In this document: one piece after another, positions 859 through 16,473 of the stretch
Layout: each line of letters opens with the position of its first letter
How positions within the stretch are numbered: position 1 is the stretch's first letter
Source: a virus
Virus record (IMG/VR): IMGVR_UViG_3300032316_001572
Location: 1 to 34,100 of that record
DNA length: 34,100 nucleotides
Direction: 5' to 3' (one strand)
Program-made: the position numbers and the translations under genes
Notes under the pieces: model-generated
Database searches by the model: none
What the model saw: only the letters and a program-made list of their open reading frames with translations
What the model was told of the DNA's origin: nothing

Positions 859-880
859 CAGCACACACAACCAAAACACG

Positions 881-901
881 ACCGCCTTCGGGCGGTTTTT
901 T
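881..901 (+). terminator. Rho-independent terminator between scaffold and coat genes
   Basis: The stem ACCGCC / GGCGGT with a TTCG tetraloop is followed by a run of T. It sits 23 bases after the scaffold stop codon and ends 19 bases before the coat start. It could lower the amount of coat mRNA that reads through from upstream, or be overridden by late antitermination. An RNA stem with a UUCG loop is very stable. Confidence 0.85.
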
Positions 902-919
902 CATTTCTAGGAGCCAAAA

Positions 920-982
920 ATGGCATCGAACACGATTCTTACCCCGACCGCAGTCACCCGCAAGGCGCTGCAAATCCTCCAT
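920..982 (+). CDS. Major capsid protein, exon 1 (21 codons)
   Basis: A start codon at 920 follows the ribosome binding site TAGGAG (908-913). The frame reads MASNTILTPTAVTRKALQIL and then His, and meets TAA at 983-985. This N-terminus matches the start of P22-gp5-like coat proteins, which continue with a QKLNFIGTINRQYDD-type sequence; exactly that continuation is found in frame at 1955. So this is the 5' exon of a split coat gene, not a free peptide. The exon ends in T, the base that forms the conserved U.G pair at a group I 5' splice site. Without splicing the ribosome would make only a 21-residue peptide. Confidence 0.9.
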
Positions 983-1954
983 TAAGTTTAGTGGCTTTGC
1001 CTCGTAAGGGGCATCGAATAACGGTGTGAATTCGGTGGAAGCCTAAACCCAGTTATCAGCTTGAGATTGCATCAAAAGCTAAGTATAATTGGGCATGGTA
1101 ATACCGAGCCAAGACCTGATTGAATGCAAAACGTGCGGCAAGGCTGCGAAGCCTCACAAAGCCCACAAACTTCACTGCGAGGCCTGTGCCAAGGCTAAGC
1201 AAGTGGAGTACCAGCGTCAGTACAGAGAAAGAACAAAGGCAGCGAACAAGACTGTGACCTGCAAGGGTTGCGGGGCTAAGTTCACGACGGAGCGATCCGG
1301 GCGAACTTGGCGTTGCGCAGAATGCACGCGGGTTTATCTGGCCGAAAGGCGACAGAAAGACCAGTACAGGCATAACGTGTATGCAAAGCAATATCGAGAA
1401 CGTCTCGGTGTCGCTTACACGGAAAAAATGCGTAACCGGCGCAGAGAGCTAGTTAAAACGCTTCCTCCTGATGAGCTTGAAAAGTTTCGTCAGGCGGAGC
1501 GCGACAAAACTCTCCGAGCGCAAGCTGTAACGAAAGATGCGGTTTTCAAAGCCTACGGCGGCTATCGCTGCGTATGCTGCAATGAAACCGAGCCGCTGTT
1601 TCTGTCTGTAGATCACATCTACAACGACGGAAACGAAATGCGGAAAAAAGGTGTCCATGCGAAGGGTGGCACGTCGTTTTATCAGTGGATAAAGCGGCAT
1701 AACTTCCCGCCTGGATTCCAAATTCTCTGTATGAACTGCAACACTGGCAAACACCGCAACGGCGGCGTATGCCCGCATCAGTCAGGTAAGGTGTAACGAC
1801 TATTCCGTAAGGAAGTAGGGCCAAGCGGCTCGAAGCGCATCGCACCCTAGCAATAGGGTGGTGAGATAGTCTGCTCTGCAACGGAAACTTGCAGCGGCTC
1901 TGTTTTGATGAAAGCAGAGCGGTTTAGGTGTAGCGAGCCTAAGCGAACACAAGG
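983..1954 (+). ncRNA. Group I self-splicing intron (972 nt) in the coat gene
   Basis: The intron separates exon codon CAT (980-982) from CAA (1955-1957) and ends in the required G. Visible core parts: P1, exon CCAU paired with GUGG at 991-994 (U.G at the splice site); P2, 999-1012 with a GUAA loop; P3, GGUGUG (1023-1028) with CGCACC (1841-1846); P4, UUCGGU (1031-1036) with ACCGAG (1103-1108); P5 extension, CCCAGUUAU (1048-1056) with AUAAUUGGG (1085-1093); P7, GACUAU (1798-1803) with AUAGUC (1866-1871); P8, near the GCAA loop at 1850-1853; P9-type hairpins after 1871. Extra stems between P7 and P3' fit subgroup IA, common in phages. The HNH gene sits in the P6 region. Folding was done by eye. 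Confidence 0.93.
1095..1796 (+). CDS. Intron-encoded HNH homing endonuclease
   Basis: The 233-residue protein has two N-terminal Cys4 zinc-binding patches (C11, C14, C28, C31 and C56, C59, C74, C77). A basic linker follows, then an HNH nuclease module near residues 150-225: CVCC at 159-162, VDH with D173 and H174, and CMNCN with C212 and C215. Such proteins cut intronless copies of the host gene so that the intron is copied in by repair. The start is unsure: ATG at 1095, or an in-frame TTG at 1089; neither has a clear ribosome binding site. Both lie in the P5/P4 part of the intron core, and the stop abuts the P7 strand, so the coding region fills the intron's P6 loop. Codon bias is weaker than in neighbouring phage genes, which fits a mobile origin. 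Confidence 0.9.
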   Translation: MVIPSQDLIECKTCGKAAKPHKAHKLHCEACAKAKQVEYQRQYRERTKAANKTVTCKGCGAKFTTERSGRTWRCAECTRVYLAERRQKDQYRHNVYAKQYRERLGVAYTEKMRNRRRELVKTLPPDELEKFRQAERDKTLRAQAVTKDAVFKAYGGYRCVCCNETEPLFLSVDHIYNDGNEMRKKGVHAKGGTSFYQWIKRHNFPPGFQILCMNCNTGKHRNGGVCPHQSGKV

Positions 1955-3097
1955 CAAAAACTCAACTTCATCGGCACCATCAACCGTCAGTACGACGATT
2001 CGTACGCCAACGCTGGCGCGAAAATCGGCGACTCGCTGAAGATCCGTCTGCCCAACCAGTACACCGTCCGTTCCGGTGCCAGCCTTTCGGTGCAAAACAC
2101 CGTCGAGCAGTCCACCACCCTGCAAGTCGCAACGCAAAAGGGCGTGGACATCGAGTTCTCGAGCAAAGAACTCACGATGGACATTGACGACTTCGCCGAT
2201 CGGATTCTTGAACCGGCGATGGCTGTGCTGGCCGCGAACATCGAGGCTGACGCACTGTCGATGTACAAGGACGTTTACAACATTGTCGACAACGACGGCA
2301 ATGCGCTCACGTTCTTGAACATTATGCAGGGCCGCAAGATCCTGAACGACAACCTTGCGCCGATGGACAACAACCGCACCGCGCTGCTGTCCACCGATCA
2401 CACTGCGAAGCTGGTCGATGCGCTCAAGGGCTTGTTCCAGGATTCCAACGCGATCAAGCAGCAGTACAAAGAGGGCATGATGGGTCGCACTGGTGGTTTC
2501 GACTTCTACGAAAACACTTTGCTGGCCAACCACACCACCGGCACCGCTCCCAAGACGACCACCTACACCGTCAACGGCGCAGTGACCACCAACGGCTCGA
2601 CTAGCGTCACCGTTGCAACCGGCACCGCCACCTTCAAGGCTGGCGACATCTTCACCGTTGCAGGCTGCTTCCGCGTTCACCCGGAGACCAAGGTTTCGAC
2701 CGGCGTTCTCCAGCAGTTCGTGGTGACCACTGACTACGCTGGTGGCGCGGGTTCGGTGGCGTTTGCGCCGGCCTTGTACAGCTCGGGCGCTCTGCAAAAC
2801 GTGGTTGCTGCCGGTATGGCAAACAGTTCGGCAATCGTCAAAGTCGGCGCAGGCAATGCGGAGCAGCTTACGCCGTCGATGGTCTACCACCGCGATGCGT
2901 TCACCTTTGCCACCGCCGACCTGGTGCTGCCCAAGGGTGTCGATTTCGCCGCTCGTGAAGTCTACGACGGCATCTCGATGCGGACTGTTCGCCAGTACGT
3001 CATCTCGACCGACCAGTTCCCCTGCCGGATTGATGTGCTGTACGGCTACAAGACGCTGCGTGCCCAACTCGCAGCGCGTCTGCACGCTGACGGCTGA
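1955..3097 (+). CDS. Major capsid protein (P22 gp5-like), exon 2
   Basis: This carries 380 of the 401 residues of the spliced coat protein, which forms the icosahedral shell. Reading in frame from 1955 gives QKLNFIGTINRQYDDSYA, then a GDSLKIRLPNQYTVR-type stretch and DDFADRILEPAMAVLAA, all typical of the P22 coat family with its HK97-like fold. A Thr/Val-rich section around 2550-2800 probably corresponds to an inserted surface domain. The total length is close to, and slightly below, P22 coat. An ATG at 2090 also starts a long open frame, but it would cut off the conserved N-terminal arm, so the spliced form is preferred. The stop is followed by a GC-rich hairpin and then the adaptor gene. 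Confidence 0.92.
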   Translation, partial: QKLNFIGTINRQYDDSYANAGAKIGDSLKIRLPNQYTVRSGASLSVQNTVEQSTTLQVATQKGVDIEFSSKELTMDIDDFADRILEPAMAVLAANIEADALSMYKDVYNIVDNDGNALTFLNIMQGRKILNDNLAPMDNNRTALLSTDHTAKLVDALKGLFQDSNAIKQQYKEGMMGRTGGFDFYENTLLANHTTGTAPKTTTYTVNGAVTTNGSTSVTVATGTATFKAGDIFTVAGCFRVHPETKVSTGVLQQFVVTTDYAGGAGSVAFAPALYSSGALQNVVAAGMANSSAIVKVGAGNAEQLTPSMVYHRDAFTFATADLVLPKGVDFAAREVYDGISMRTVRQYVISTDQFPCRIDVLYGYKTLRAQLAARLHADG

Positions 3098-15368: not shown

Positions 15369-15394
15369 TTATTTGGCCCGCTGTCTAATACTCG
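15175..15394. repeat. Repeated CTGTCTAAT elements at the 3' end of int (candidate attP)
   Basis: The 14-mer CTGTCTAATACTCG occurs at 15175-15188 and 15381-15394. CTGTCTAAT also occurs at 15361-15369, and its inverse TTAGACAG at 15243-15250. The rightmost copies overlap the last codons and stop of int. Short sites repeated in both orientations beside int are what integrase core and arm binding sites look like. The crossover sequence cannot be fixed without the bacterial site. Confidence 0.55.
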
Positions 15395-16331
15395 GGCCAG
15401 AAACCACCGGCACGATCTTGTCGCGCAGGTATCGCTGAGTCACCCGCGAGTCGGTGTGGCCGAGCAGTTTCTGAGCGTCGATGCCCTGCGCGTCAGCCTC
15501 CGTTCCGCTCATTGCACGCAGGTCGTGCAAGTTGGCGTCATCGATGCCAGCCAGGCCGCAGGCGATCGTCCATTGTTTGTGAATCATGTGGTAATTCGGT
15601 GGCGCAGATCCAAGCAGGAAAGGCTGCGACACGTTGCCGTGGAGTGCTTTGGCATCGGCGACTGCGGCGCGAAGCTCGGGCGTCCAGGCGAGCATTAGTC
15701 TGCTGCCGGTCTTTTGCTGCTGGACGAAAACACCGGCATCAGTCACGTCTGCTCGTGAAACCTTCAGCACGTCACCGATACGCTGGCCGGTTGCGAAGCA
15801 CAGATCCATGATCACCTTGAGCATTGGCCTGGCCTGCGCTTTGATCAGATCAAACTCGCGCCGACTGATGCGCCTGGTGCGTGCGGCGATTGTCATCCGC
15901 TTGATGCCGACGCATGGGTTGTGGTCGATCATCTGCTCTTCGAGCGCAAAGTCGAAGACAAGCTTTAGCACCGTCAGCAGGCGGTTTGCAATGGCCGGCG
16001 TCGTCGAGTGTGCGCGGCGCAGGGTGGCAACATCGCGGCCGGTGACCTGATGCGGCGCAAAGTCGGCGAATGCCTCGGAAAGTCTCGCGGCGCAGTCGCG
16101 GTACTGCTTTTGCGTCGATGCTGCTTTGCCAGCAGTGATTGTCGGCATTGCTTGTGCTATCAGCGCGGGCATCCCGCCGAGCTTTTGCTCGTGCAGTCGA
16201 GCGTACTCAGCGAGCGCCGCCGGCAGGTCTGCGCCGAGCCTGATCCACTTGTTGCGCTTGACCAGATAGTAGGCGTTGTGCTTCTGATAAACGCAGGCGG
16301 GGAGCTGGCGTTGCTGCTTGCGTTGGCGCAT
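15369..16331 (-). CDS. int: Tyrosine recombinase integrase
   Basis: The 320-residue enzyme joins phage and bacterial attachment sites. All active residues are visible: R184 (GQRIGD), K207 (QQQKTGS), H269 and R272 (HDLRAMSGTEA), H292 (LLGHTD) and nucleophile Y301 (TQRYLRDK). The first 60 residues are basic and hold the arm-binding part (YYLVKRNKWIRLG); residues about 65-140 form the core-binding helices. ATG at 16331 has AGGAGA about ten bases upstream and is chosen over an in-frame ATG at 16367. It is the last gene of the leftward early operon, and its end overlaps repeated elements of the candidate attP. Confidence 0.93.
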   Translation of the reverse strand: MRQRKQQRQLPACVYQKHNAYYLVKRNKWIRLGADLPAALAEYARLHEQKLGGMPALIAQAMPTITAGKAASTQKQYRDCAARLSEAFADFAPHQVTGRDVATLRRAHSTTPAIANRLLTVLKLVFDFALEEQMIDHNPCVGIKRMTIAARTRRISRREFDLIKAQARPMLKVIMDLCFATGQRIGDVLKVSRADVTDAGVFVQQQKTGSRLMLAWTPELRAAVADAKALHGNVSQPFLLGSAPPNYHMIHKQWTIACGLAGIDDANLHDLRAMSGTEADAQGIDAQKLLGHTDSRVTQRYLRDKIVPVVSGPSIRQRAK

Positions 16332-16473
16332 TTTCGATGTCTCTCCTGAATACGACGATAGTGCCATCAGTCCGCAACCGATACGGCACGGCCAGCGCGC
16401 GCAATTCTCGTGCCTGCGCGCTGCGCATTTGCCGGCCGGTCAATACGCGGAGTTCGTCGTCGGTGAGAATCAC
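16207..16473 (-). CDS. DUF4224 protein, possible excision or integration helper
   Basis: The 88-residue frame begins at GTG and holds the DUF4224 pattern ILTDDELRVLTGRQMRSAQ, then LRALAVPYRLRTDGTIVVF. This winged-helix-like domain is often found directly before phage integrase genes and has been proposed to have an excisionase-like role. Its last 40 residues overlap the first 125 bases of int in another frame, an unusually long overlap; the Gln/Arg-rich tail may be a by-product of the int sequence, the real domain ending near residue 50. The ribosome binding site is weak. Confidence 0.7.
   Translation of the reverse strand: MILTDDELRVLTGRQMRSAQARELRALAVPYRLRTDGTIVVFRRDIENAPTQAATPAPRLRLSEAQRLLSGQAQQVDQARRRPAGGAR

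Follow-up and report, generated by a model that had tools for sequence, protein, structure and literature searches.

The Coat Gene and Its Genomic Setting

The window, that is, the whole stretch of DNA analyzed here, is one entire metagenomic virus record of IMG/VR, with 34,100 bases. A scaffold gene (positions 1-858, phrog_3927 match) opens it and is separated from the coat gene by a hairpin resembling an intrinsic terminator (880-897, plus strand). The coat gene lies on the plus strand in two parts. Exon 1 (920-982) comprises 21 codons, MASNTILTPTAVTRKALQILH, the last being CAT and thus ending in U in the RNA, and is directly followed by TAA at 983-985. The coat frame is picked up again at 1955 (QKLNFIGTINRQ...) and ends at 3097, which gives an exon 2 of 380 codons. 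When joined, the two exons encode a coat protein of 401 aa. Its exon 2 segment is recognized by P22_CoatProtein (PF11651, E 1.8e-35) as well as by phrog_283 (E 3.2e-69). The intervening insert (983-1954, plus strand) is 972 nt long and its last base is G.

The coat relatives retrieved from IMG/VR amounted to 80, of which 64 lack both intron and nuclease, 10 do not extend far enough to be classified, 5 carry an intron with a nuclease, and 1 (L059) has a different intron that matched weakly. Where the upstream DNA is long enough, nearly all of them run without a break (...LQILHQKLNFIG...) through the exact junction. In the intronless L002, L004, and L005 the read-through is MATNTILTPTAVTRKALQILHQKLNFIGTINRQYDD, and in the protein of the ∼64 intronless relatives the junction is LH|QKLNFIG. 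The peptide of exon 1 is the same as in intronless relatives, and compared with the closest of them (again L002, L004, and L005) only one nonsynonymous codon is found among the 3-4 changed, the divergence being mostly synonymous. A previous sequence-only reading of this DNA had set the end of exon 1 at the TAA and the return of the frame at 1955, and both the frames and the intronless read-through confirm it. The identical intron also occurs in a second record (L006), which makes an assembly chimera unlikely. In L059 (171-1027), the coat gene is of the window type and holds another insertion, approximately 33-40 nt farther downstream than that of the window; this insertion contains an unrelated HNH-type ORF (491-940) and its match to the IA2 core is weak.

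Head genes, a large terminase subunit, a portal gene (phrog_156), and an integrase gene (15369-16367, minus strand) are also present. The combination of integrase and portal is consistent with a temperate podovirus, as had been proposed. The nearest coat genes in cellular genomes were those of Pelomonas, Denitrobaculum, and Caulobacteraceae assemblies, with 56-68% identity.

Detection and Subgroup of the Intron

A covariance model (R1) of 21 other introns, none of which comes from the window's own lineage, gave a single match in the 34.1 kb, at 1794-1895 (97.3 bits, E 2.6e-24), and nhmmer gave E 1.5e-23. Together with the intronless relatives and the covariation described below, these matches bear out the proposal that a group I intron splits the major coat gene. 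The expectation that Rfam RF00028 would also detect the region failed: at its gathering score, which is a detection threshold and not a defining feature of group I introns, the intron was missed (12.2 bits vs. 50), and the match below threshold was at chance level (E 3.9) but at the right place. The miss is attributed to the 660-nt ORF, which breaks up the core, and to the poor fit of the general model to subgroup IA2. RF00028 was consequently dropped as proof of the intron.

The last ∼110 nt of the insert form a core that was found by BlastN in 248 phage records, most commonly from phages of Escherichia, Pectobacterium, Klebsiella, and Salmonella. This runs against the earlier view that such introns are less often reported in proteobacterial phages. 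The same core is present in L117, which we take to be a locus like td of T4, and on this ground the intron is placed in subgroup IA2. In agreement with IA2 introns, the window has the catalytic core P3-P4-P6-P7-P8, P7.1 and P7.2 between P7 and P3, and a P1 closed by U.G.

Structural Elements and Covariation

All elements lie on the plus strand. P1 pairs the exon end 979-982 (CCAU) with the guide 991-994 (GUGG) and ends in a U.G pair, and P2 is the hairpin UGCCUC-GUAA-GGGGCA (998-1013) seen in the sequence. The 5′ strand of P3 (1022-1028, CGGUGUG) meets its partner across the ORF, at 1836-1842 (CGCAUCG), and that of P4 (1031-1036, UUCGGU) pairs with 1103-1108 (ACCGAG), with a compensatory change in L124 (UUCGGG/CCCGAG). 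The ORF loop is closed by P6a, through pairing of 1114-1119 (ACCUGA) with 1782-1787 (UCAGGU). P7 consists of 1798-1802 (GACUA) and 1867-1871 (UAGUC), for which L151 has GGCTA/TAGCC. It is followed by the IA2 hairpins P7.1 (1803-1806/1811-1814) and P7.2 (1818-1822/1827-1831), then by P8 (1843-1860, CACCCUA/UAGGGUG) and P9 (1876-1894, CUGCAA/UUGCAG); P7, P8, and P9 were defined with the covariance model. The helices previously paired by eye were right in kind.

Covariation across the relatives was found for P1, P3, P4, P7.1, P7.2, and P9. In the 3′ domain, double-sided changes occur in 17 of the 26 pairs, compared with 8.2 in shuffles, and P7.1/P7.2 have compensatory changes in seven of nine pairs with all cells paired. 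P3 is paired in all 10 introns compared, and both sides change in four of its seven pairs. P3 and P4 together have 130 of 130 cells paired and 15 double changes, a covariation score that none of 500 shuffles reached, their strands having been chosen by eye at fixed anchors, which favors pairing.

As for the 5′ splice site, the guide and the tail of the exon change together in every related intron and always end in U.G. In detail, the exon tail and guide are CCAT/GTGG in the window and GAGAT/GTCTC, GGGT/GCCC, GCAT/GTGC, GGAT/GTCC, CGGT/GCCG, and GGCT/GGCC in other introns. P1 has only 4 bp in the window; it is the best check of this splice site. A P10 pairing was set aside as too weak an argument. 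For the window, the codon 18 site common to its relatives (see below) was ruled out as the splice site, because exon 2 does not contain the intervening 7 nt.

In conclusion, the covariance model, the covariation, the intronless relatives, and the concerted change of exon and guide strongly support the intron, its boundaries, and the need of splicing for a full-length coat protein, as had been claimed. From the same comparisons we infer that the window intron splices.

The Intron-Encoded Nuclease

Within P6a, the intron carries an ORF (1095-1796, plus strand) for a putative HNH-type homing endonuclease of 233 aa, the stop codon of which abuts P7. It matches phrog_1271 (HNH) with E 1.8e-9 and phrog_1035 (endonuclease VII) with E 2.8e-6. 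Its motif is CxCC...DH...CMNCN, with invariant D173, H174, and N216 and paired cysteines of the Zn-binding type, and Cys-rich segments are found in the N-terminal part. The ORF is open and the catalytic-type residues are retained in all 11 sequences compared. A Pfam search with the nuclease gave nothing above the cut-off. Similarly, when the beta-beta-alpha-metal fold was looked for with the AlphaFold2 model, Foldseek against the PDB gave no match with E below 0.001, SciA of T5 and Hpy99I appearing at E ∼1 only. Neither this nuclease nor the pattern of its family at coat genes had been noticed in the earlier sequence-only reading. A sigma-70-like promoter (TTGAGA-17-TATAAT, 1061-1089, plus strand) is predicted in the P5 extension from agreement with the consensus at 11 of 12 positions. 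It lies 5 nt upstream of the nuclease ATG, so the nuclease transcript might be leaderless; the same hexamers occur in L018.

Free, Intronic, and Empty States at P22-Type Coat Genes

The family of this nuclease was surveyed through the best 80 of 334 IMG/VR relatives, and in all 80 a P22-type coat gene adjoins or hosts the nuclease. Among these best 80, 31 nucleases are located inside IA2 introns, with the core between the nuclease and coat exon 2, and 49 are free; with near-copies taken into account, the distinct loci are 27 intronic and 38 free. The free genes (L085-L087, L089-L101, and most of L133-L198) immediately precede an intact P22-type coat gene, the ribosome-binding site of which is located at or inside the 3′ end of the nuclease gene.

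Most of the introns have a common insertion site, after the second base of codon 18, in coats that are only ∼45% identical to each other. The site of the window's lineage is 7 nt downstream of it, that of L106 is 28 nt downstream, and that of L088, as read by eye, is 8 nt upstream. In each of these shifted introns, the guide fits the intron's own site. L289 (3436-3693) has an IA2 intron without ORF in codon 18 of its coat gene, which is of the L086 type. In this intron a GAAA loop closes P6a, and the RNA folds unaided into P1-P6, P7.1, P7.2, P8, and P9 (z −4.4). No nuclease of the window's family was found in the L289 locus, and no genome was found to combine a free nuclease with an ORF-less intron.

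GenBank phages with relatives of the nuclease at other loci include Salmonella phage Munch and Streptomyces phage Keanu. In L280 (MW202512.1, 2300-3100), a related nuclease is located in an IA2 intron within a phrog_334 capsid gene, which belongs to another capsid family and is annotated in GenBank from an internal ATG. In L281 (MW202692.1, 2348-2764), from another podovirus, a related free nuclease is flanked by portal-side genes on one side and by a phrog_422 capsid gene on the other.

Probable Mobility of the Intron

L008 and L018 have the intron at the same place as the window. At 4-fold sites, the nucleases of L008 and L018 differ by 4% and their coats by 15%, and the L018 coat is nearer to that of the intronless L016 (11%) than to that of L008. 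Between the window and L018, the nucleases differ by 27% and the coats by 40%. This mismatch in divergence indicates that the intron either moved between lineages or was lost many times, and on these sequences movement seems the simpler of the two. Rooting the nuclease tree for the order of the free and intronic states was abandoned, since the outgroups were too distant and the root unreliable.

Vertical inheritance of a splicing intron, with its scatter produced by repeated loss and the nuclease as a passenger, is judged unlikely. It draws on the fact that only three distinct window-type lineages have the intron while most relatives lack it, a distribution that losses would also produce. Against it stand the closeness of the L008 and L018 nucleases relative to their coats and the affinity of the L018 coat to L016, together with an ORF that is open and retains its catalytic-type residues in 11 of 11 cases.

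The Codon 16 Mark

Coat genes beside a free nuclease (46) were compared with those without (64) over 760 variable bases. Of the 760 sites, the first base of codon 16 (Leu16) had the strongest association (V 0.87). It is either C or T, which does not alter the amino acid, and T is found in 43 of the 46 genes beside a free nuclease and in 4 of the 64 without; the two groups came from separate searches, and this may be a source of bias. Leu16 is thus TTR next to a free nuclease (e.g., L086, position 3530) and CTN without it, and the base precedes the common intron site by 8 nt. In a coat tree from which the first 150 nt were excluded, the presence of the nuclease changes 16 times, and the Leu16 base follows it 8:0 in independent pairs (p ∼0.008). 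Ser/Ala at codon 15, also considered as a self-protection mark, showed a weak association, in contrast to the strong one of codon 16.

The simplest reading is that the Leu16 change probably protects the phage against its own nuclease. The site is within ∼75 nt of the free nuclease gene, so part of the association could be linkage. In its full form, this alternative holds that the free and intronic nucleases share ancestry but not a target, and that the mark is sequence that hitch-hiked with the incoming nuclease gene; besides the proximity, an association at codon 2 (V 0.55) is in its favor. We consider it possible but the less probable account, as the first position of codon 16 is an isolated peak between less associated sites, the mark occurs both as TTG and as TTA and with either Ala or Ser preceding, and it recurs 8:0 in the independent pairs.

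Discussion

A mobile group IA2 intron appears to be positioned after codon 21 of a P22-type coat gene. To judge from structure, covariation, and the intronless relatives, its RNA would fold around the ORF loop, excise itself, and join the exons into the message of the 401-aa coat. By homology, the HNH-type nuclease would cleave, near codons 18-22, the coat genes of related co-infecting phages that lack the intron, and repair would then copy the intron into the cut gene, as the lateral spread also suggests. The same nuclease family has a second mode here, standing free immediately before an intact coat gene, and the phages in this mode have the synonymous Leu16 change that probably guards them against their own enzyme. 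With the empty alleles and the ORF-less intron at codon 18, the 5′ end of the coat gene presents what collaborative homing would lead one to expect, namely intron and nuclease apart, both combined, and neither. The position of the free nuclease and the protective-type base change likewise fit a presumed target at the insertion site. We regard this picture as a whole as highly probable.

The opposite reading, that the coat gene is broken by an unspliced insertion and a shortened coat is translated from an internal start close to 2090, is very improbable. A frame of 335 aa does open at GTG 2090, and the annotation of the L280 capsid is a related instance, but exon 1 is still conserved as protein, its tail covaries with the guide, and the N-terminal residues are retained in intronless relatives.

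A wider proposal, to which we lean with some reserve, is that the first ∼28 codons of P22-type coat genes may be a homing arena. There, the HNH family would move between free genes and IA2 introns, codon 18 would be found empty, next to a free nuclease with the protective codon, with an ORF-less intron, or with the composite one, and introns would relocate through a changed guide.

The intron itself is of a known kind and its host gene is uncommon but precedented. A group I intron in the capsid gene of LittleE, of the Cluster J mycobacteriophages, has already been reported (PMC3706429), and that paper also cites lactococcal phage Tuc2009. The LittleE intron, for which splicing was shown by RT-PCR and N-terminal sequencing (PMC3706429), resembles that of the window in carrying a nuclease ORF and in lying in the major capsid gene. 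LittleE belongs, however, to another phage group, and its nuclease is LAGLIDADG-like and on the opposite strand.

The td-type IA2 introns of T4 share with the window the P7.1/P7.2 layout, a near-identical P7-P9 core, the ORF in P6a, the U at the exon end, and the G at the intron end. They differ in their GIY-YIG nuclease, the window having an HNH-type nuclease and a P22-type coat gene as host.

Collaborative homing has been reviewed (PMC2988022, PMC3984707), and in ICP1 introns are found in the tape-measure and terminase genes, with nuclease genes enriched near capsid genes (PMC10448857). In those cases (the ICP1 terminase included), as here, a free nuclease adjoins a gene with an intron site at the presumed target. 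Unlike them, a single nuclease family here occupies both states at one coat-gene region, where empty and ORF-less-intron alleles also exist. No report of these two states at the coat gene was found in the open-access literature searched.

A practical caution also follows, namely that the annotated start of a coat gene in an environmental phage record can be an internal codon. The setting matters more than the intron, as it bears on how introns and homing nucleases first join: a short stretch of an essential gene shows, in related phages, the separate, combined, and empty states together with a mark resembling self-protection. If true, the homing arena would be a natural series for the assembly and relocation of mobile introns.
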